This document shows positions 16,551 through 48,194 of a stretch of DNA of 64,000 nt, piece after piece. Source of the stretch: Clavelina lepadiformis (lineage: Eukaryota; Chordata; Ascidiacea; Aplousobranchia; Clavelinidae). The first letter of the stretch is position 1. Each line of letters begins with the position of its first letter. Below the pieces are notes generated by a model. The model was not told the origin of the DNA, did not search any database, and saw only the letters and a list, made by a program, of their open reading frames with translations. The translations under genes and the position numbers were made by a program. The stretch is taken from the NCBI RefSeq assembly GCF_947623445.1, contig NC_135245.1, forward strand, positions 131,501 to 195,500, written 5' to 3'.

Positions 16551-16558
16551 ATTTAACC

Positions 16559-16864
16559 CAGGGGTGGCCAACCAGTCAGAGACTAATAGCCTCACTTCTT
16601 ACTGCGTTAACCGCAAAGAGCCACATCATACACATTATGATTTATGACGCTTTTTCTTATTACGTCATAATAGTGCATGAAATATTGTTTCAGTTTCATC
16701 ATCTTTATTCTGGGTGGAAATCTAATGTAATCAGTCATTATTTAGCTAATATCAATTGAACATTAGCCAGTAGAGATTACTTTTCTGTATTATTTATCTG
16801 CCTAAAATGTGCTCTCTTTCGGAGGTTCAGTATGAACGAAAGAGCCGCGGGTTGGCCAGGCCTG
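16559..16864 (+). mobile_element. hAT MITE with perfect target duplication
   Basis: A 306-bp element. Left end CAGGGGTGGCCAACC; inverted right end CAGGCCTGGCCAACC. Flanked by identical 8-bp duplications ATTTAACC (16551-16558 and 16865-16872), the hAT hallmark. The end sequence is of the widespread Charlie-like type. Non-coding. Confidence 0.88.
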
Positions 16865-35142: not shown

Positions 35143-35150
35143 GTAGCCTC

Positions 35151-35300
35151 CCAGATAGCACGTAGTTGTCGGCCCGACGGCTACAACGAGCTATTCTCGC
35201 TATAGCGATTGTAGCTCCTCTGCCGCTGACGAGTAGCAAGCTAGACGTCGCGTTTTTACGCCGTCTAAAGCTCTTTGTCGGGCCGACAGAGGTCCATTAG
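35151..35300 (+). repeat. Dispersed repeat starting CCCAGATAGCACG
   Basis: Shares its end CCCAGATAGCACGT and a GC-rich interior with words such as TCGGCCCGAC and TTTGTCGG with the inverse of 47995-48194. Family unknown. Confidence 0.4.
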
Positions 35301-35781
35301 TGAAGTTAGATGATAGCCTACCGTAAAAATGTTTAGAACAAAATAATGATTATACATACATAAGTAAGTTATATTTAATATGTTTAAAATATAAATTTTA
35401 TTATTTAATGATGTTTGTAACAGTCTGAAAGGTTTTATCACTAAATGTTAGTAACAATTATAATAATTATGGTAATTGCTATAGTAATAACGCCTTTGGT
35501 TTTTTATTGAAATAGTTTAAATGTAACACGTATTATACTTTTTTGTACATTCTGCGTTTTAATTAAACAGTTAATTAAAAAAACATTTTTAAGTAATCAA
35601 ACGACGTCATTATGATGTTTTTTCTGCTTTGAGACTATATATTCTACCTTCTCCTCGTAGTCTAGTCTGAACAATGTGGTATTGCGGTTGGTGCAGTACC
35701 GTATAAAGTTTGGATCAAGGTTGCCACTCGTAGGAATTTTACCCTACGGTAGGTTTTTTTGGCCCCTTGTAGGGTGTAGGG

Positions 35782-36260
35782 TAGGGGTGGCCAAACTGCA
35801 GCTCTTTGAGCCTTTGATTGCGGCTCTTTAATGAATTAGACATGCATTTTCCCGGTCTAGACGAGTTGTTTGATCAGATTATGAAACAATATGTTCTGTC
35901 ACACGTAGTAACAATGGACTCATTGTTAGTAATAATCAAATTACACACCAAAAAGTACATTATTGTACAGAAGTGTGCTAACTTGTACACTGTAGTTACG
36001 TAAACTGTCAGATTGAAGCTGTACGTCAGGGCTGACCTAGTTTTAAGTGTAATGTTATAGCCTACTAATAATTGCAAAAAGAGTTGGTGAAGCCCAGGTG
36101 GAGACTCATAGTATCACCACGCAGCACTAATGTTAATCAATAGCTACACTTCGTTGTAAGTGAATAAATTCGTGTTTTTTATTGTGTTTGTGTTGTGGCT
36201 CTTTTAAAACTGGAATTTGTTATATGCGGCTCGAGCATGAAGCAGGTCTGGCCACCCCTG
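35782..36260 (+). mobile_element. hAT MITE with perfect target duplication
   Basis: A 479-bp element. Left end TAGGGGTGGCCAAACT, inverted right end CAGGGGTGGCCAGACC. Identical 8-bp duplications GTGTAGGG at 35774-35781 and 36261-36268. A partial copy of the same element lies at 41255-41530. Inserted into the outer hAT element. Confidence 0.86.
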
Positions 36261-36369
36261 GTGTAGGGTGACCCTACGGGTTTTTCACCTTTATTCATAG
36301 ATTTCCTTTTGTTTAAAGTAAAATAAAAATAAATTCAAATAATAAATTTACTGAATAATGACAAAAACA

Positions 36370-37560
36370 GGGACTGGGTAAAACCTGGACACGACGCAAT
36401 CCGCGGATCGTCCATGGACGGTTGAAAATGGACGATTTTTGCGTAAGCGTCCATGGACGCTTTTACGCAAAACCGACGTTTTCCCGTAATCGTCCATGGA
36501 CGGTTGTTGAAATAGGCTTAAATCAGTTGTTTTTCGAGATCGTCCATGGACGGTTGAAAATGGACGATTTTTGCGTAAGCGTCCATGGACGCTTTTACGC
36601 AAAACCGACGTTTTCCCATAATTGTCCATGGACGGTTGTTGAAATAGGCTTAAATCAGTTGTTTTTCGAGATCGTCCATGGACGATTTTAGGAAAAGCTT
36701 AAATAGCGGATATGAGGAAAGCGTCCATGGACAGTTGTGGGATTAGGCTTAAAAAGCGTCCATGGACGATTTTAGGATAAGCTTAAATAGCGAGATGATG
36801 AAAATGTCCGTGGACAGTTATGGAATAGGCTTAAATAGTGGATATGATGTAGTGTCCATGGACTGTTTTGGGGTAGGCTTAAATAGTGGATATGATGTAC
36901 CGGTAGTGTCCATGGACTGTTTTGGGATAGGCTTAAATAGTGCATATGATGAAGTATTCATGGACGGTTATGGGATAGACTTAAATAGCGGATATGATGA
37001 AGTATCCATGGACGGTTATGGGATAGGCTTAAATAGTGGATATGATGAAGTATCCATGGACGGTTATGGGATAGGCTTAAATAGTGGATATGATGAAGTA
37101 TCCATGGACGGTTATGGGATAGGCTTAAATAGTGGATATGATGAAGTATCCATGGACGGTTATAGGATAGGCTTAAATAGTGGATATGATGAAGTATCCA
37201 TGGACTGTTTTGAGATAGGCTTAAAAAACGTCCATGGACGATTTTAGGAAAAGCTTAAATAGCGAATATGATGAAAGTGTCCATGGACAGTTATGGGATA
37301 GGCTTAAATAGTGGATATGATGTCAGCATCCAGCAAGCATGGACAGTTTTGGGGTGATATGCAGAAATGATAGGACATGCAAAGACGTCCATGGGTTTTG
37401 GGATAGACTTAAATGATGTATTTTGGATTAACGTCCATTTAAGGGTTTTGGGATCTAGGTTTAAAATTAAATGATGGATATTGGAAAAACGTCCATGTAC
37501 GGTTTTGGGTTAGGCTAAAGTGATACAGTTATAGGCATCTATAAGCTGGACACGACACAA
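36370..37560 (+). repeat. Left inverted repeat of the foldback element
   Basis: The outer part has units of about 125 bp containing GTCCATGGAC palindromes; the inner part has a regular 48-bp unit (palindrome starts near 37005, 37053, 37101, 37149, 37197). CGTCCATGGACG, a perfect 12-bp palindrome, recurs in the outer units. Because 48 is a multiple of three, a 161-codon frame at 36762-37247 translates to a 16-residue repeat, MDGYGIGLNSGYDEVS; this is likely fortuitous. Confidence 0.8.
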
Positions 37561-38016
37561 TCCATGGACTGTTGAAAATTTTGAGTAATTATTTCGTGGC
37601 ATGACCAACTTTTTTATTTATGTGTCTTTACTGTAAATTGTTGTTATTATTCTGATTTAGATATAACATTACTGATCTCAATACATATTACTCTGATATT
37701 GTAAGTGTATTTTAGATCATTTTTACGTGCTAATGGCAAATGTTTTTGTGGCACTTGGGATAAATGGATGTTTCAGCATAGCAAACATGAAAGGCAACAA
37801 GACAGTTTGAATTGTGGCTCACTTGCTTTAAAGGTATTTTTAGAAAGGATGAATTCAAATTTGTGAAGATTAAGTATATATATAATCACTATTATTATTA
37901 GTATATATTATCACTAATTCAAACTATTTGACATCACAATGTGTAATCGTGTATATTCCTAAAATCAAATTGGATTGTAAAAAATAGCTTTTCTATCAAT
38001 AAGTGGCATATTGCAG

Positions 38017-39685
38017 GAAGCTCAAAGAATCCTTAATGAAAGTTCTTCCGAGGAATAGATCGATACGGACAGCGAGTCCTGCAAAAAGTATCGCATGGAC
38101 TTTGGCAATTTACTGCTTGATTCCACCGGTGAGAGGCTGTTGGGCTTTTAATTAGAACTGCAGTATTTGTAGCATGTTGTGACCTTGTTGTTGTTTAAGG
38201 TCGTTGAAGTATACCACATAATTTTCCAGAAGAGCACTAAACCATACTTATGTATAAAGTTAATGTAAAAGAGATTTATAGGAAAACCACCAACATTTTT
38301 AACCTGACTTTAAACAGATTAACTATTTTGTTCGTTGTTGTATTTGTAACTGGCACATTGTTGGTCTTGAATTTGTTAACTAAATATTTTTAAAAACTGT
38401 ATACTTCTGTTTTCACAACAAAGTATTTTAATGTAAAAATGCAGATAGATTTATTTCATTTTGCAGACTATGATGTATTGTTGAGTTTTTGCAATATATG
38501 CCACAATCAAGACCCATCTGAAATTGACCAGCAAAAGACAGAATGGGTAAACCTTGTTCATCATATAATATATTAACTTAGGCAGATTTAACCATCATTG
38601 CATACAGTTTAGTAGGTATTATAAGCTGCAACTATTTTACCACTGTAGTGAAACTATTTCGAACTGGGCAGCGGCAGATATCAGATTTTGGAGAAGTTTA
38701 TTTTCAGTTTTACTGTGGTCTAGGCCAAATTTTGAACTTTTTACTTTTAGCTTGATACTTCAACAGGACCATGATAATCTCTATCGTCGTTTCTTCGCAT
38801 GACTTAAACCTGGCACTGATTGTGACATATTTTTTATTGGTTTTTGCATCATATTGCCCAAATTTCAAACTTTTTGCCAGTTTAAATAAAAAGACCTAGC
38901 GTCGTTAATGCATTGCAACTGAGTATCGAACACAAGCCATGCACAAAGTTTGCTCATTTGTTTCAGATGTTACTCTATGTTTCTACATTCAGATAATAAA
39001 TGTCTACGAGCACACAGGTCCAGCAGTGCATAGTTTTATTTTTGTATAATTCCTGTTCTACAACCAAAAATTGTGTACATAAAAATTACTTAACTCAAAC
39101 ACAACTAGAAAATTTAAAATCACTTTTAAAATTCTAGTTGTTTTAATTTTGCACTCGTGGTTCCAAAACACTTATGAAAAAACTAAGTTAATGACTTGTG
39201 TTTTTTTTGATAGGTTGTTTTAACTTTATAGAACACCTATACCATGCTCAAGCATATGTGGGCAGTACTGCGGTACTATAGTACCGAATTACTTTTTTCA
39301 AGAAATTACAGTCAGTCCCGGTAATCAGTACTTTTCGTGTGATTAGTTAAAATTTAACAAGTTTATGTTCAAAAAACACATGTTAATTACTCCTTAATAC
39401 CAATTGTAGCATCTGTTGATCTTTTTTAATCTAGAAGTGTCAAGCAAAATTGCGAACAAGTAACCTTTACCGCAGCAAATATTGCATTTGCTGCAGCATC
39501 TTTTACACGAAAAGTGCTGTCTGTTCACCTCTTTGCTTAAGAGATCACTTTACAGGATTTAATTGTCTATATTGTTTTTTCAGATTGAATGCAGTCTTTG
39601 TTGTCGATGGGTTCATCAGAATTGTGTACCATTAATACAGTATTTGTCGCAGGAATATTTTTGCAGCACCTGCAAAAAAGAATAA
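38017..39685 (+). pseudogene. Spliced PHD-finger coding module inside the foldback element
   Basis: Three segments with splice signals and matching phase: 38017-38128, 38467-38546 and 39584-39685. The joined product reads LLLDSTDYDVLLSFCNIC, a polar linker with KTEW, then IECSLCCRWVHQNCVP and EYFCSTCKKE-stop. Its ligands follow the PHD pattern Cys4-His-Cys3 (CNIC, CSLC, HQNC, CSTC). The 38017 segment has an in-frame TAG at 38056-38058 after NESSSEE, with the serine/acidic run continuing as IDTDSESC; so either the frame begins after it (ATG at 38086) or the gene is decayed. It could be a transposase C-terminus or a captured host exon set. No upstream exons were assigned. Confidence 0.6.
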
Positions 39686-39778
39686 ATGGATTAATACAAA
39701 TTTTTGTGTTTGACGCGAAAGTGAATATATTCAATTTTAAGCAATATATGACGAAATAAAATCGAGATTAGGTGTTAC

Positions 39779-40286
39779 CAGGGCCGGATTAAGGCGGGGG
39801 CTGATGGGGCTGCAGCCCCAGGTCCACACCCAAATATAGGCCCACCACTGCACTAAGTCAATGAAACAACTAAGGTAGCCTAGGCTAATACAAATCTCCC
39901 AGCTATTATTGAAAACACAGTCCATGCACTGTAAAACCCAACCTGGTTATTATGACGCAACAATCAAAATTGCGTAAATAAATAAAAAATCATTTGCGTT
40001 CGTCTATGAGGCAGAAAAGGTTGAATTCCTTAGCTATACTCTGCATCGAAAACGACATTTTGCAAAAAATAGACACCGATGACATTATTAAGAGCTTTGC
40101 ATTGTCTAAATCCAGAAAATGCATCATTTGAATGTGTGCATACAAAGTAAATATATACTTTGTTTATGTATTAATATTTGTTTTTCGTTTCAATTGTGGT
40201 TAGTTTTTAGTACAACGAATAGAATAAAAAATAGGCCTCTGACTATCATAGAGCCCCAGGCCCATAAAAAGCTTAATCCGGTCCTG
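39779..40286 (+). mobile_element. hAT MITE inside the foldback element
   Basis: A 508-bp element. Left end CAGGGCCGGATTAAGG, inverted right end CAGGACCGGATTAAGC. Identical 8-bp duplications GGTGTTAC at 39771-39778 and 40287-40294. It lies just after the PHD module. Confidence 0.87.
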
Positions 40287-40599
40287 GGTGTTACGCTGCT
40301 CACAGTTATAGTAAAATATGTACAATTTAACACATTAAGCTTGAGTGATGATGAAAACAACTTGGTTAAAGTCTTTAATCACATAATTTAAAAAGTTTTT
40401 GGAATTGGAGTTTATTCAGACCCAGATTGGAAAGTTCGCTGTTCTTGGGTGAGAAATCCCCTGTGCTACATTATGAAAGAATAGCCATTGTACGCCCAAT
40501 TAATTATATTCCTCCCCCGCGTTCACATTCAAATACTGAGTGAGTTTTTACTGGATTGACGATGATGGTCACTTCTCTCCTGTCAGCTCATCTTATAAC

Positions 40600-41234
40600 A
40601 AAAATCGTTCATGGATGCTTTTTAAGCCCATCTCAAAACAGTCCATGGACACTTCATCAAATCCACTATTTCAGCCTATGCCATAACTGTCCAAGGATAC
40701 TTTCATCATATGCACTATTTAAGCCTATCCCATAACCATCCATGGATACTTCATCATATCCACTATTTAAGCCTATCCCATAACCGTCCATGGATACTTC
40801 ATCATATCCACTATTTAAGCCTATCCCATAATGGTCCAGGGATACTTCATCATCTCGCTATTTAAGCTTTTCCTAAAATCGTCCATGGACGCTTTTTAAG
40901 CCTATCCCACAACCGTCAATCGACGATTTCCCTATTTCCGCTATTTAAGCTTTTCCTAAACTCGTCCATGGACGCTTACGCAAAAATCGTCCATTTTCAA
41001 CCCTCCATGGACGATCTCGAAAACACTGCTTTAAACTTATCCTAAAAACTACCCATGGACGCTTTGTTAAAAAATAACTCATTTAAGCCTATTTCAATAA
41101 CCGTCCATGGACGATTAAGGGAAAACGTCGGATTTGCGTAAAAGCGTCCATGGACGCTTACGCAAAAATCGTCCATTTTCAACCGTCCATGGACGATCCG
41201 CGGATTGCGTCGTGTCCAGGTTTTACCCAGTGCC
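40600..41234 (-). repeat. Right inverted repeat of the foldback element
   Basis: Inverse of the left repeat, about half as long, with the same unit types and ending in the inverse of CTGGGTAAAACCTGGACACG. The outermost 100 bp or so are nearly identical to the left end. Confidence 0.8.
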
Positions 41235-41254
41235 ACAAAAACATAGTCTAAGCC

Positions 41255-41530
41255 AGGGGTGGCGAAACTGCGGCTCTTTAATGAATTATCATTGTTGAAT
41301 TAGACATGCATTTTCCCGTCTAGACGAGTTGTTTGATCAGATTATGAAACAATGCGTTCTATCTCATGTAGTACCAATGGACTCATTGTAGTAATGATGG
41401 ACACTTTAGTTAAGTAAATTGTCAGATTGAAGCTGTACTTCAGGGCTGACCTAGTTTTAAGTCTTGGTTATGGTTATACTAATAATTGTAAATTGCAAAA
41501 AGAGTTGGAGAAGCCCAGCAGGTGGAGACT
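41255..41530 (+). repeat. Truncated copy of the 35782 hAT MITE
   Basis: Starts CAGGGGTGGCGAAACTGCGG and follows the left part of 35782-36260 in the same orientation (TTAGACATGCATTTTCCCG, GACGAGTTGTTTGATCAGAT). The right end is not found. It starts about 20 bp outside the foldback element. Confidence 0.65.
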
Positions 41531-41807
41531 GGAGAGTGAGATAAAAGTGAGTGAGAAATTTTCTGATAATTTTGACTTCACACCAAGACTAGGCTAGCTC
41601 GGTTGCATGCAAATGCTAGACGATCATATATGAATAAATATTGTGCTCATGATCGTGTTGCTGCGGAAGAGGTGGAATTTATGGACAATGATGATTTTCC
41701 TTTTTGTTTTTGATCTCAGAAGATCACTGCCTAATTAGTTTCTTAGACAACTTTGTGATTTATATTCATAAATGTTTGTCATTTGATAATGGTACAGTAA
41801 CTGTGGG

Positions 41808-43058
41808 CATAGGCGCCGAAGTTTACAAAATGTAGGGCGGAAAAGTTAATGGGTTCATATGTTTGGGAATTCCCCATGTCAAGGATTGTTGTAAAAACAC
41901 AAAATAACATAAAATATACTTCTAATCAACGTTATTTGCGACAACAACCATGCTACAAGTTTTTGCTTTTTATAAAAATTCTAGACTTGTTGGTTATGCT
42001 AACCTAACACTTATAGCTCAATTGTATTTATCGTCCGTGATTTTCTGCACCTCTTCTAGTTTTGCTCTCCCTATTCTCTTTAAACACTTCGCATGCGTCG
42101 TCCCAAGGTTATTTTTGGTCATTATGTTTGTCTGTACAGACGTAACACCAGAGATGGGAAAACACTTCCAACAAAAGCATATCAGTCGAATCCGGTTAAT
42201 TGCATAGTCAATTTGCCAAGCCTTTTTATGCGATTAAACGAATTATGCGTTTATGCAAAGGTGCAAATTCCACTTATTTTCTTACTTGACGTGCGATGCT
42301 GGTCACGTGTAAAAACGTCAATACGCAAAACACTAACGTTTATTGTGTATAGCGATCATTCATTCATTCAAGCACGCAAAAGATGAAAACATGCTTTCTT
42401 GCATTTGTGTTTTTAAGCGAACAAATGTGGCCATGTCCGCCCCTTCAAACTGTAGTCGTTGGCGAATTGTATGAAGTACATGCAGAACTTCTTTATTTTT
42501 TGGTGTTGTCACAACGATTGCGTCAGCAGAGCTTTCTTTATTGTTCTCGTCTTTTTCAACTTGTATGTTTCGTAAAACTTCTTCACATATTACGGCATCA
42601 TCTTAACGCAATGCTTAAATGAAACTAAAACAGTGCGAATGTTAATATGAGCGTATTGATAGCCACATGTTAATACTTAAATTGAGCATTGTTGGTTTCA
42701 TTGTTTCATAACAAAGCGCAGTACAAGTCACAAAGCTTATGCATTGCGTGTGCGCTCCCAGTGCGCGTTGTTTTCAATTTTATCTTTTAAAAACTTTTGA
42801 ATAATCGAATAAATTATCTTCATTTTTATTCAATTAAGCGGATTATGCAATAAACCGTTATGCGATAAACCGAAGTATTGTCTTTATAAATGATAGACTA
42901 CGCCTACGGTTTGGGACTTGCGCCCTTTATGCGATAAAACGAATTATGTGATTATCCAGAATGCAATTAACCGGATTTGACTGTATAACCTTTTGAACAT
43001 AAAATCGCTATTATTTGTTAGAAAAATCCACCCTGTCCACCCAAGTTCGGCGCCCGTG
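41808..43058 (+). mobile_element. hAT element with perfect target duplication
   Basis: A 1251-bp span. Left end CATAGGCGCCGAAGTT, inverted right end CACGGGCGCCGAACTT. Identical 8-bp duplications ACTGTGGG (41800-41807 and 43059-43066). About 800 bp of it is a nested TA-flanked element, so the original was about 450 bp and non-coding. Confidence 0.82.
42182..42983 (+). mobile_element. Tc1/mariner-pogo-type MITE nested in the hAT element
   Basis: Left end TCAGTCGAATCCGGTTAATT and inverted right end CAGTCAAATCCGGTTAATTG, with TA dinucleotides beside both ends. Subterminal words (TTTTATGCGATTAAACGAAT left; inverse near 42935 right) extend the inverted repeats. No transposase frame. Confidence 0.6.
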
Positions 43059-43767
43059 ACTGTGGGTATGAGACACTGTGTTAACATTGCCTATTTGCAC
43101 GTATGATACGGTAACTAGCTTATTTGTTGTAATTTATCATTTCCTTGATTTTAACACTATGAGTCTATGACAAGTGCTTCAATGTTTTGCAGACAGTATT
43201 CCACTAACTGTAAAATTAATATTGCAATTTTTTAATGTTTTTGTGATGTTAGTTATGACATTTGGCAGCCTAATGTACTTGTAAAGGAATATTTCGCACT
43301 GTGAGTTGTTTACTGTGATGCTGTATCGTACTGTGAGTTGTTTTTTTTTTTTAAATAATTTTTCGGTTAGAAGATGTCTTATGATGGCTTGCTTTAGTTT
43401 GATAGAGTTTGCTTGGTGTATATAGGGTATGATAACATGTATGGCTCAGCTTCACCACTAAAATTCAGATAATTGAGGTAAGATAACCCTGGTGGTTTAT
43501 ATTCTGACTTAGTTGTTGAGTATAAGCACCAAAGAATGTTATCTGCTATTGCTCTTGTTATAAATTCAACATTACTGATATATTCAATTAGTGGAAACAC
43601 AAACGTCAGTAAATGTTGAACTACTTTAGTTCTGGTGCTTTTGAACTGAAACTAAAGTAGCTATAAAGTGCTATAAAACTGCCAAAATTTCTTTTTTTTT
43701 TTGTTCAAACTGCGTAGGGAGATATAGGGTTTTGTTAGGTGTTTTGAGTGGCAACACTGGTTTGGAT

Positions 43768-45150
43768 TGAGGATGTAACATTCAGAAGATAAGAAGGCAC
43801 GCAAAAACTGGTGTTTTGGTGGATTTTAAACTGTAGTTTGGTTTATTAGTAATGCTGCTGAAAAGCGGTTATAGACTTGACGCAAATGCAAGTGCTACAT
43901 GCACCAATTGCAGTTCAGTTACATCGTAATATGAAACAGGCGCATGCACATGACTCGTTGATCGGTTGATGTGCATCTCTGTCTCACACCAGACTACGTA
44001 AAGAGTTTGGAATAAGCTAATGACCTTTGTCACTGTGTGTTTTGCAGAGTTAATGCTGCGTCATTTTACGTAAGGCAGTTTATTTTCTGTTTCAAGATTA
44101 TGAATCAATATTCAACAAAAGTATAGTCTATAGTTCAAACCATTTGGCACGAAAAAGATATCCACTATATTTTGAGTGCTCGGCAAAAATTCGATATAAA
44201 ATGTGCCCTGTAAGAACGAAATGCATACGAGTCGTGCAAGCAAAGTCAATATCTGAAGAGGTTCATTAATAGGCTAGGTGTCCAAGACTGCCAAGTTTTG
44301 TAACTTTATCTTGAGCGAAACATGTATTTTAGACGGGGTGGTCAAAAAGCCCCTCATGTTTTTTTTGAGTGTCTCTGGCACTCGCGAAAATAGAGTTAAG
44401 GTGTGTAATTTTGCACATGTATTGTACAATAGTTTCTAATTTGACTAATAACAACATTTAACACCACCACCTGTTCCAGAAATGCCTAACACCCAGGAAA
44501 TAAGGAATATATTATTCTTGATATTGCTGTTATTATAAATTTTATGTAATGTTTTAAAACAGATATGGGCTACGTATGAGACAATCTTCATATTAATATT
44601 CAAGGTGAAAAAATGAAAGTATTTTGTCTTTTCCAAATTTAGAGGTGATAAGCTATGCTAGGCCTATCAATTTTTTGTTTTTGCAGTGCAAATACTTCTT
44701 TTACGACACCAATCCTAGTATCAAGGTAGATAACCTTGATATGCAATGTTTATATAGTACTGTACTGACTGCAATCTTTGTTTTGTGGTGCCAATATCAG
44801 AGCAATATAGTATTCGTATTTCACTAAATGCAGCATTTGATACTAACAATATACATTTCATGTTTTTTGCAGTTCTGTGACTTTTCAACAAACCGATAAT
44901 CAGGCAAGTGCTTCACATCAATTGCTCACAGAATGGTAAGTTCAAGTTGTACTGAACTAAATAAATTTTCCTAGAAAAACTAGATGTAAAAAGGAGTAAA
45001 GTAAAAGTTTTTTTGTAAAATACTTTGGTGGGATACCAATTATTATCATATGTCACAAGCTCTTGGTAATGTTGTGCAAATATTTGAACAGTGATAGACA
45101 ATCTACTATTCTTTTACTGGAAAGAATTTGGGGACAAGCATAACAAAACA
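43768..45150. other. Intergenic stretch before the DUF4806 exons
   Basis: Upstream exons of the DUF4806 gene may lie here but none could be assigned. No other gene seen. Confidence 0.35.
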
Positions 45151-45155
45151 CTCTA

Positions 45156-45944
45156 ATGCTCCAGTCTCTTCATCGCCGATTTGTTGAAGGGCAGATACCA
45201 TCAACTTCTTCGGTGGAACACTTCAACTTGCCGATTGGTTCATTTGAAGATTTTGATAGGGTGGAGCCACTGCTGGCAGAGAAATCACAAGCGAGTGTTC
45301 TTGTAAGTGCAATATTTAGGTTAATATCCAAGTTACTGATAATACAGTAATACGAATATCGAATATTTTCATCTCTATAATCTAATTGCTATGGGGGACT
45401 ACCCTGACATTTTTTCACTTACAACTTTGATAATGCTTCCATGTAAAAGCATGGTTACAACACAGTAATTACTTGAATGGTCACAATAAACTATGCCTTT
45501 GTAAACAGTAACATAATGCCACCAAACAACTGATTCTTATCAGGATTTATTTTGATTTCCTATCTAGCAACAATAGGTGACATAACAGGGAAAGTTGTTA
45601 TCAGCACGATTCTGAGCAAATTGTTGACATCTGAACTGGCAACCAGTCTTAATTGGATGGGAAAGGGTCACAAGAGAGGAATGCATTCATCACAACTCGC
45701 AAAAGCTGCTATAGGTGAATAAGTCAAAATTGAGTTTGCTAAGTCCTGTTTTGATTTTTTTAGGTTGCTTACTGCTTCATTGTTTTAAGATGTATTGTGA
45801 TTGTTATTTACTATTATCTGTCCATGATGTTTACTCCAATACAGTATTTAGTTTTGATGTCATTATACTTTAGATGCTGCCAAGAATTCTGGTATCAAGG
45901 AAGCAGAGAGTATCTGCGAGGTCAAGAAATGTGAAAAACGCTAG
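45156..45944 (+). CDS. DUF4806-domain protein, C-terminal exons
   Basis: Three segments join in phase: about 45156-45306, 45568-45714 and 45874-45944. The product includes FNLPIGSFEDFDRVEPLL, then VTTIGDITGKVV, TILSKLLTSELATSLNWMGK and a stop after KKCEKR. The pattern LP...F...E..L, then a TIGxD-like turn, ILxxLLTxxLAxxxNWxGK, is that of DUF4806, a domain of unknown function common in invertebrate proteins often linked to transposon-rich families. The donor of the first exon (GTGCAA) is weak, although phase requires it; an alternative GTAAGT three bases upstream would break the frame. The 5' part was not found. The Mutator-like element begins only 40 bp after the stop, so the gene's 3' region may be disrupted. 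Confidence 0.5.
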
Positions 45945-46149
45945 TGACAGGAAAGGGGGAAGTCGAAAAAGAATGAAGAATAAGGGGATCACGTCAATTG
46001 ACCGTGAACAAATTCACCGGCGACAACTGGTAGTGGTCAACTGACCGGCAACAAATTGGCCGGCGATCAAATTAACCGTGACGTAAATTGGCCGGCGATG
46101 AAATTAACCGTCGATAAATTGGCCGGCGATCAAATTAACCGGCGACAAA

Positions 46150-47187
46150 TTGGCCGGCGGTCTAGGTCAAAATTCTAATTCACTATCTAGTCGCGCATCA
46201 GCTTTAATCCCAGCCAATTTAGTATGTGTATTGCAGTCTTTCGCACAACTTTTTTTGCAGTATGACTCAGGAGCTGAAGAAAATAGGATATTAATTTTTG
46301 GCACCGAAGAGAGCAAAAGAGTACTAGAATTATCAGAAAACTGGCAAGCTGATGGGACGTTCAAGGTTACCGCGCCAATATTTTCACAGGTTTACTCTAT
46401 CCATGCTTCACGACATGGCGACCTTGTCCCAGCGTTGTACTGTTTACTACCGAACAAAGCACAAGAAACATATGAGCGGTTATTTCGCGCAGCGTGGCAA
46501 CTGATACCAAATGCACATCCAACAAGTTTTTTGGTTGATTTTGAAATGTCTGCAATAAATGCAATTCGGATGGTTTTTGACTATGATGACCTCACAGTAA
46601 GTGGTTGCTTTTTTCATTTAAATCAAAATGTCAGGAAGCACATGCAGCAAATCGGACTTCACAGAAGGTATCAAAATGATCCAGAATTTGCACTACTGCT
46701 GCGTCACATACCGGCTTTGGCATTTGTTCCAATACAGCATCTGATTGAGGCTTTTGAAACATTAGAGGAAGTTGTGCCTGATGAAATGCTTCCGCTTCTC
46801 GACTACTTTGAGCGTACTTACATCGGGCGTCGCTTTCGGACTCTCCGACGAGACCCGCCATATTCACATGACTTCTGGAACGTCCATGTTCGGGTGTTAA
46901 ATGGCGACGCCAGAACCAACATCAAAGTTGAAGGTCACCACAATCTAATAAACAAGATGTTATCAATGCAACACCCAACCATTTGGAAATTTATAGAAGC
47001 TTTGAGGAAATTGCAGAACATAAACAAAAACAAGATTGAGGCGCTCTGTGCCCAAGGGCCTCCTGCCAAAAGGAGAAAATACAAGGATCTGGATGCGCGA
47101 CTTAAAACCATCGTTGAAGATTTTGCAAACCGTGACATATTAGATTTTCTCAGAGGCATCGCCCACAACCTACAATTTGCGCAATGA
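46150..47187 (+). CDS. MULE transposase, catalytic domain
   Basis: An uninterrupted 345-codon frame with the Mutator-like transposase fold: LILIF-like ILIFGTEESKRVLEL, then WQADGTF with the first catalytic Asp (residue 68), FLVDFE with the second (130), the CFFHLNQNVRKH zinc-like motif (C153, H156, H164), and KVEGHHN with the Glu (261). It ends DILDFLRGIAHNLQFAQ, the usual family end. All three DDE residues are present. No ATG occurs in frame before residue 133, and the first 12 or so codons lie in the terminal repeat, so the N-terminal FLYWCH-type DNA-binding part is missing. A good splice acceptor (TCACTATCTAG, ending near 46190) could join it to an unseen upstream exon. Confidence 0.85.
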   Translation: MAGGLGQNSNSLSSRASALIPANLVCVLQSFAQLFLQYDSGAEENRILIFGTEESKRVLELSENWQADGTFKVTAPIFSQVYSIHASRHGDLVPALYCLLPNKAQETYERLFRAAWQLIPNAHPTSFLVDFEMSAINAIRMVFDYDDLTVSGCFFHLNQNVRKHMQQIGLHRRYQNDPEFALLLRHIPALAFVPIQHLIEAFETLEEVVPDEMLPLLDYFERTYIGRRFRTLRRDPPYSHDFWNVHVRVLNGDARTNIKVEGHHNLINKMLSMQHPTIWKFIEALRKLQNINKNKIEALCAQGPPAKRRKYKDLDARLKTIVEDFANRDILDFLRGIAHNLQFAQ

Positions 47188-47994
47188 ACTTCCTTATTTG
47201 TCAAATAACAGTTTGTGTAAATTTTAGTGCCCTTATTATGTAGTGTCATATGTGTTTTGCGGTGAAGTTCTTTTGATGTTGTTACTCGTATTTCCGGAAA
47301 TATTTCTGTTTATTTCAATAAATGTTTCAATTTGTATTGAAATAAAAACAAATTTTGTTAAAAAAAGGAAATAGTTACAAACAAATATTTACTTTACATA
47401 TCACATACTACCATCAACTTAAACACAATAATTCAGCACTTGCACGGTCAATTTACCTCCCGGTCAATTTTCATTCCGGTCAGTTAGTTGGTTCTAGGTC
47501 AATTTCGTCACGGTTAGTTTGTTCGCGGTCCCTTTACATCACGGTCAGTTTGTTCGCGGTCAATTTACGTCACGTTCAGTTGTCCCGGTGAGTTTGTTCG
47601 CGGTCAATTTCCCACGGTCAATTGTCATGGAACCTGACGCAGATGAATCGAAGTTCATAAAATATACTTGTTTGTCTTCATCTTTCCGTTCTTTATCTAA
47701 AACATTTTTGTAATCAAAATTATTGCAATATGTTTCTTTACCAACTACAAAAGTTAAACGCTCTGCAATACATGATATGAACATCAAGCACGTATGCCAC
47801 ACAGCTTACCCAACTTATTCTTGGTTCCACGACAATTGACCGCGAACAAACTCACCGGGGACAACTGATTCATTCGATTCATCTGCGTCAAGTGATGATA
47901 GCGATGCTTTGCAGTAAAATATTGTGTTTGCTGTTTCAAGATTGAAAAAATAAACTTTTGCTCAAATGCATAAAAACGCTGTGTGTTAGTGATT

Positions 47995-48194
47995 GTTGGT
48001 AGGCCCAACGTCGGCTCGTGGGAGATCGTAGCTAGCGCGCCAACCTAGGTCCGACAAAGATTTTGTAGCCCTCTACCCGACGTAAGCCCGCTGGACAAAA
48101 AGGCGTTGGCCCTTCAGCGATTAATTATTATCGGTAGTGGGCCGCCAGAAGCAAGCTATCGGCCCGTGTGCGCGAGCGACGTGCTATCTGGGCT
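47995..48194 (-). repeat. Dispersed repeat, inverse relative of 35151
   Basis: The inverse strand starts GCCCAGATAGCACGTCG and is GC-rich, as at 35151-35300. Family unknown. Confidence 0.4.

Follow-up and report, generated by a model that had tools for sequence, protein, structure and literature searches.

Five insertions of one DNA transposon into another in a nested block of the Clavelina lepadiformis genome, with a candidate Rehavkus-type foldback among them

A stretch of about 13 kb in the tunicate Clavelina lepadiformis is a stack of DNA transposons lying one inside another, in which the sites of five inserts are vacant in sister copies (Table 1). The window, that is, the whole stretch of DNA analysed, comprises 64,000 nucleotides of NC_135245.1 (positions 131,501 to 195,500) and represents one assembly haplotype of one genome. 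An earlier note on this DNA took the 8-kb hAT element at 35716 for the outermost layer, but this is itself enclosed by a CACTA-like element, now split into a left part (35150-35707) and a right part (43760-45984) followed by a rearranged tail. In the genome search the sequence flanking the outer hAT proved to be a dispersed repeat, and CACTA-like relatives match both sides of the block with their order kept. The TIR, which begins with CCC, is present with its inverse as a 14-mer both in the window and in an intact relative (L074). The 2-bp target duplication is CT in the window and AT, on both sides, in L074, and with two copies only it is weak by itself. The exons of the element match DUF4806 (29.8 bits; cut-off 25), and a 645-aa open reading frame in another relative (L075) resembles DUF4218 below the cut-off (E 0.0011; 19.3 bits against 27), a domain that accompanies CACTA transposases. 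A Pfam search of the L082 reading frame returned nothing at the cut-off. In the tail, the relatives break off at 45982-45984, just left of a MULE whose transposase reading frame (46150-47187) matches PF10551 (41.2 bits; cut-off 27.6); direct alignment to L074 and L083 resumes from 47873, after an inverted piece.

Table 1. Coordinates of the nested elements and associated features in the window
Feature	Position	Strand	Remarks
CACTA-like element (TRC-type), outermost layer	35150..48192	.	TIR CCCAGATAGCACGT; 2-bp duplication CT; DUF4806-type exons
Outer hAT target duplication, left copy, 8 bp	35708..35715	+	GTTTGGAT; single copy in L074, L083
Outer hAT, non-autonomous	35716..43759	.	Ends CAAGGTTGCCACTC / GAGTGGCAACACTG; own sequence ~1.42 kb
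MITE1, hAT	35782..36260	.	Buster-like TIR TAGGGGTGGCC/GGCCACCCCTG; duplication GTGTAGGG 35774-35781 and 36261-36268
Foldback, Rehavkus-like	36370..41234	.	48-bp minisatellite arms; duplication ACAAAAACA 36361-36369 and 41235-41243
Exon, PHD finger first half, in foldback	38467..38546	+	Borders read by eye; genome matches
Exon, PHD finger second half and stop codon	39584..39685	+	Borders by eye; genome matches
MITE2, hAT type, in foldback	39779..40286	.	CAGGGCCGGATTAAG...CTTAATCCGGTCCTG; duplication GGTGTTAC 39771-39778 and 40287-40294
"Truncated copy", left ~290 bp of CAGGGGTGGCC hAT	41254..41541	+	Constituent of outer hAT family
Inner hAT (h2)	41808..43058	.	CATAGGCGCCG...CGGCGCCCGTG; duplication ACTGTGGG 41800-41807 and 43059-43066
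TA-type (mariner/pogo-like) element within h2	42183..42983	.	Inherited with h2
Outer hAT target duplication, right copy, 8 bp	43760..43767	+	Exact repeat of left copy
MULE with minisatellite arms, within CACTA-like element	45985..47631	+	Right border tentative
Inverted piece of CACTA-like element beside MULE ends	47632..47822	-	Aligns reversed to L074, L083

The five exact target duplications that the note had claimed are all in place and abut the element ends, and when unoccupied copies were sought in the 209-Mb genome, empty sites were found for all five inserts. Among the fetched loci, joined-flank probes identified empty sites for MITE1 at 26 sister places (24 ungapped), for the foldback at 21 (18 ungapped), for h2 at 11 (10 ungapped), and for MITE2 at 16, all ungapped. 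The site of the outer hAT is empty in both relatives read there (L074 and L083), less cleanly than for the other inserts: the joined probe matched only L083, at 84% and with 7 gaps, and did not pick up L074, whose sequence differs to the left of the insertion site. The single copy of GTTTGGAT was recognised by eye. Because sister copies without each insert exist, a chance origin of the duplications is untenable. Serial nesting, the core of the earlier reading, is thus borne out by exact duplications together with empty sites in relatives: the nest is real, and five element-into-element insertions are demonstrated.

The joined outer hAT ends that the note had predicted do occur elsewhere, about 1.4 kb apart and with their own exact 8-bp duplications (L052, L053, L063), and complete sisters carry both ends, which disposes of the possibility that these belong to unrelated families. 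Exact 8-bp duplications also border the sisters L016, L011+L060 and L015+L054; L013, L018+L055 and L012+L066 lack exact ones. A 204-aa fragment read from sister copies of this hAT gave no Pfam match near the cut-off. For h2, three copies (L079, L080, L081) have their own exact 8-bp duplications and a fourth (L078) has one mismatch, while a full copy of MITE2, L086, shows 3 differences in 508 bases and is bordered by an exact 8-bp duplication of its own. Among foldback copies, in which the two 48-bp arrays (36759-37225 and 40621-40889 in the window) are inverted to each other, 9-bp duplications were read in the window (ACAAAAACA), L030 (CTTCGGTAG) and L033 (AACAAGGAA); they were looked for in L031, L032 and L034, and none was seen.

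Two further components had been listed as insertions at this locus, and here the reading changes, since the same composites occur at many other places. Of 40 scored h2 matches, the window among them, 35 span the TA element in a single alignment. The TA element also occurs without h2 at C1:11829308 and at C8:13290564, the latter being flanked by TA at either end; TA lies on both sides in L077, but in the window copy and in L076 it abuts the right end only. Likewise, the piece at 41254 is found in 29 of the 32 fetched loci that have the left block of the outer hAT (it is absent from L002, L003 and L021). An own right end for this piece was sought in complete sisters, and none was found in the 17 loci scanned.

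We consider that the block was built up stepwise at this place, with a probability of about 95%. The CACTA-like element would have arrived first, as judged from its 2-bp duplication, no empty site being seen for it, and an internally deleted hAT copy then inserted into it. This outer hAT took three separate inserts, MITE1, h2 and the Rehavkus-like foldback, with h2 already loaded with its mariner/pogo-type element on arrival; MITE2 went into the foldback after that. The inserts presumably owed their mobility to transposases produced elsewhere and acting in trans, and no function for the host would follow. Contrary to what had been proposed, the order is not fully readable, since MITE1, the foldback and h2 stay mutually unordered; nor does each target duplication date its layer, as duplications give nesting order and not dates. 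Relative ages may be approached through private substitutions, counted against consensuses of few copies (four for the CACTA-like right part, four for h2 and seven for the foldback, with MITE1 left out): 57/2104 (~2.7%) in the CACTA-like right part, 29/1381 (2.1%) in the outer hAT, 17/1246 (1.4%) in h2 and 2/2083 (0.1%) in the foldback interior. This inward fall suggests that the CACTA-like element is older than the outer hAT, the latter older than h2, and h2 older than the foldback. The left CACTA-like part, with two relatives, has 8/450 (1.8%), lower than the outer hAT.

It could be argued that the composite was assembled elsewhere and came as one unit by transposition of a loaded outer hAT, and there are precedents on a small scale, since the TA element was carried by h2 and the 41254 piece by the outer hAT family. 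However, in none of the fetched outer-hAT sisters does MITE1, the foldback or h2 occupy the same position to the base, the MITE1 site of one sister (L013) is taken by another element of 0.37 kb, and private change in the foldback is 0.10% against 2.1% in the surrounding hAT, so that we regard such an arrival as very unlikely. An assembly artefact fusing unrelated repeats might be suspected in so highly repetitive a region, but every join is bordered by an exact duplication whose length suits the family in question, and matches an empty site that occurs at other places; a QV of 67.4 is, moreover, given in the published account of the assembly (PMC10884593), if this is the same assembly. That explanation appears very improbable.

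The foldback is the most interesting part of the nest. Its two exons, when joined, match a PHD finger (PF00628, 24.8 bits; Pfam cut-off 24). The passages of PMC6446971 on Rehavkus describe an architecture of 9-bp duplications, a minisatellite and a PHD finger, and list only arthropods and annelids as hosts. With these elements, including Rehavkus-1_TC (PMC10218199), the window foldback shares a PHD finger, 9-bp duplications and inverted ends that contain or adjoin tandem repeats, whereas no transposase core was found in it and its host is a tunicate. The passages on Mutator/Foldback Tm1 (PMC3169594) report composite tandem-repeat TIRs, 9-bp duplications and non-autonomous copies, all shared with our element, but the repeats differ and the term PHD finger is absent from the available text of that paper. 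No tunicate host is named in the passages on Rehavkus that were consulted; one of these, which pools "Mutator + Rehavkus" (PMC4438587), is uninformative on Rehavkus hosts. We give about even odds to the reading of the foldback as a non-autonomous member of Rehavkus that was active not long ago in a tunicate chordate, beyond the surveyed arthropod and annelid range; if confirmed, this would extend the reported host range of the group to chordates. The near-identical copies point to recent activity. Because the window foldback and its seven relatives are so similar, with 2/2083 private changes, an autonomous source may still be present in the genome. No Mutator-like DDE transposase of the foldback was found in the fetched copies.

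Alternatively, the PHD finger might be a captured fragment of a host gene (Pack-type) and not the remnant of the element's own Rehavkus-type transposase. This would fit split exons in an element where no transposase was found, as well as the 14 of 60 PHD matches that have no listed foldback end within 6 kb, and a fly foldback with the gene Ssk is known from the passages of PMC8277862. Also in its favour, the exons are no more alike than the introns across the 20 fetched copies, their identities being about the same, which gives no sign of use and led us to reject selection on the PHD exons. Against capture, the PHD finger, 9-bp duplications and minisatellite together make up the architecture described for Rehavkus (PMC6446971, passages cited above), and among the 60 PHD matches no single-copy host parent stood out. 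We hold capture to be a tentative reading, possible and somewhat short of probable. A 192-aa reading frame upstream of the PHD exons in one copy (L045) was tried as the foldback transposase and rejected, as it belongs to another high-copy element: it recurs at 17 other places with 97-99% identity across almost all of the query (150 scored among 1258 candidates); for 15 of them the nearest listed foldback end is 378 kb or more away, and two are on C2, where no such end is listed. Pfam searches of two of the three L045 reading frames gave nothing at the cut-off.

Fully resolvable nests had been called rare. They are in fact routine, as nested elements are known from diverse eukaryotic genomes and are resolved by standard software, REannotate, according to passages of PMC2672092. 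As in those clusters, order is read here from which element interrupts which; the present case differs in that empty sites also back each insertion and all elements are DNA transposons. The nest in the window is thoroughly documented, but the phenomenon that it exemplifies is common. Its value lies in the form of proof, as exact duplications combined with empty sister sites tell local insertions from passengers already in their carriers. A search for published Clavelina hAT elements returned only a match concerning another species.

Two members of the nest resemble elements described in passages of PMC4298943. The outermost layer shares with TRC-type CACTA elements such as Spongebob_HMa a TIR starting CCCAG and 2-bp target duplications, but its TIR departs after CCCAG, it has DUF4806-type exons, and the transposase match of its family is under the cut-off. 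MITE1, whose copies are dispersed in the genome (40 scored among 460 candidates), has a TIR, (T/C)AGGGGTGGCC, similar to that of the Buster-type hAT Buster2, CAGGGGTGGCCAACCT, and an 8-bp duplication, which was read in the window copy only.

The nest of DNA transposons is real, well resolved and ordinary; it is one layer deeper than the earlier note had it, and two of the layers proposed there are passengers. The earlier note held resolvable nests to be rare, a view that does not survive comparison with the available part of PMC2672092, in which nested clusters are common and routinely put in order. What makes part of the nest worth following is a possible chordate Rehavkus.

All five direct repeats that had been claimed are present and adjoin the element ends in the window (contig C6, 131501-195500, in a genome of 209 Mb in 95 contigs).

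Target duplications of the nested elements (window positions of the left and right copies)
Element	Duplication	Positions	Observation
Outer hAT	GTTTGGAT	35708/43760	direct repeat adjoining element ends
MITE1	GTGTAGGG	35774/36261	direct repeat adjoining element ends
Foldback	ACAAAAACA	36361/41235	direct repeat adjoining element ends
Inner hAT (h2)	ACTGTGGG	41800/43059	direct repeat adjoining element ends
MITE2	GGTGTTAC	39771/40287	direct repeat adjoining element ends

Empty sites were sought with probes joining 40+40 bases of flank around a single duplication copy, and were counted as distinct genomic places among the fetched relatives, not the whole genome, with the window's own loci excluded and loci without any probe match left outside the counts. 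The MITE1 site is unoccupied at 26 places (24 ungapped), the foldback site at 21 (18 ungapped), the h2 site at 11 (10 ungapped) and the MITE2 site at 16, all ungapped; the MITE2 probe had no match in four out of the 20 fetched foldback-interior copies (L045, L047, L048 and L082, among L030-L048 and L082). For the outer hAT, the sole match among the fetched loci was L083, with gaps; direct reading shows GTTTGGATTGAGGAT as single-copy in both L083 and L074, preceded by related, partly diverged sequence. At the site corresponding to window 35774-36268, the outer-hAT sister copy L013 (C8:1312586-1316293) lacks MITE1 and carries a different element of ~0.37 kb with ends CAGGCATGCAC and GTGCATGCCTG; L013 is one of the loci without a probe match, and this short GTGTAGGG target was struck twice independently, by MITE1 in the window copy and by the other element in L013.

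The outer hAT had been proposed as the outermost layer but is not, since its flanks (35150-35707 on the left and 43760-45984 on the right) are themselves a dispersed repeat whose order is kept at several places and which encloses the block. In L074, an intact relative, CCCAGATAGCACGT and its inverse form the two ends, each bordered by AT; the window has this 14-mer at 35150 and its inverted form at 48179-48192, each bordered by CT. We file this element as CACTA-like because its CCC ends and 2-bp duplications match the TRC-type CACTA elements of PMC4298943, as far as the accessible text describes them. Its right part holds DUF4806-type exons (29.8 bits, cut-off 25), and the interior is longer by about 3.3 kb in some other relatives; this extra part, in L075, the sole such relative fetched, contains a 645-aa ORF with a DUF4218 match below threshold. 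The CACTA-like element also contains, in the region 45985-47872, a MULE that has minisatellite arms and a 345-aa transposase ORF with a recognised domain; a MULE survey, in the portion available, describes evidence of MULEs in chordates as limited, with one Ciona sequence the exception (PMC6446971). Beside it, ~190 bases of the CACTA-like element (47632-47822) are inverted relative to L074 and L083 and adjoin a short MULE end (47823-47872), an arrangement that suggests MULE ends rearranged with each other. Another dispersed repeat, at window 16554-16848, matches an insert within L074 (1754-2053) at 89%.

The dissimilar outer hAT ends, CAAGGCTGCCACTC and GAGTGGCAACACTG, belong to one family, because sister copies carry both ends between their own exact duplications; the condition under which the earlier note's reading would fall, ends from unrelated families, therefore does not hold. 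L052, L053 and L063 run from one end to the other across ~1.4 kb, each with an exact 8-bp duplication; exact duplications also occur at three further sister copies (L016, L011+L060 and L015+L054), and none was found at L013, L018+L055 or L012+L066. The supposed truncated copy at 41254, one of two items to which the earlier note assigned no duplication, also belongs to this family and did not insert at this site: it is present in 29 out of the 32 fetched loci with the outer hAT left block, several loci of one copy each being counted separately, and absent from L002, L003 and L021. Likewise, the TA element, the other such item, occupies the same base in other h2 copies and therefore did not arrive here. 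One alignment spans it in 35 out of 40 scored h2 matches, window included; the query contained the TA element, and TA-free copies could be among 274 further candidates outside the scored 40. It also occurs alone, outside h2, at L076 and L077. Among the matches listed, seven h2 copies, 92-94% identical to the window h2, lie in ~150 kb at C3:878557-1031374, perhaps a tandemly duplicated region.

The CACTA-like element thus received the outer hAT, which received MITE1, h2 and the foldback, and the foldback received MITE2. The nesting gives this order and leaves MITE1, h2 and the foldback unordered among themselves, as it does MITE2 relative to MITE1 and h2. For a relative gradient, without a clock, we compared the window copy with the majority sequence of its relatives and counted the substitutions found in it alone: 57/2104 in the CACTA-like right part (four relatives), 8/450 in its left part (two relatives, a small sample that falls under the hAT value), 29/1381 in the outer hAT (35 loci, some from one copy), 17/1246 in h2 (four relatives) and 2/2083 in the foldback interior (seven close copies; 5/2019 with 17 copies). 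Between MITE2 and the one full relative known for it, 3/508 positions differ. The higher value in h2 suggests that h2 inserted before the foldback; MITE1, whose nearest relative among the matches listed is 95% identical, has no place in this age order.

The foldback arm tips are 96% complementary across 165 bases and are followed by 48-bp arrays, and the interior encodes an intron-split PHD finger (24.8 bits with exons joined, cut-off 24); the genome has 60 matches to this PHD finger, and for 46 of them one of the 78 listed foldback ends is no more than 6 kb away. The 9-bp duplication, the minisatellite by inverted ends and the PHD finger are features published for Rehavkus, which the consulted portion of PMC6446971 describes from arthropods and annelids; that of PMC10218199 describes Rehavkus-1_TC. 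Among five foldback relatives (L030-L034), two have a 9-bp duplication and three have none. No transposase core was found for the foldback in the fetched copies, so it is a possible rather than an established chordate Rehavkus, and acquisition of the PHD finger by gene capture is a rival. The finger is probably unused in the 20 copies compared, since its exons are no better conserved than the introns.

Two foldback copies 1.9 Mb apart on C4, L031 at 928 kb and L032 at 2786 kb, have the same flanks, pointing to a segmental duplication and not two insertions. The ORF at L045 3658-4459 (C3:22706501-22707073) belongs to a high-copy family and matches nothing in Pfam; 150 of 1258 candidate places were scored, several of them having open frames of 470-612 aa. 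This is an abundant coding element that no curated Pfam family covers. A long open frame at L045 3-1238, encoding a pogo/Tigger-type transposase (DDE_1 124 bits, HTH_Tnp_Tc5, CENP-B_N), adjoins the foldback relative on C3.
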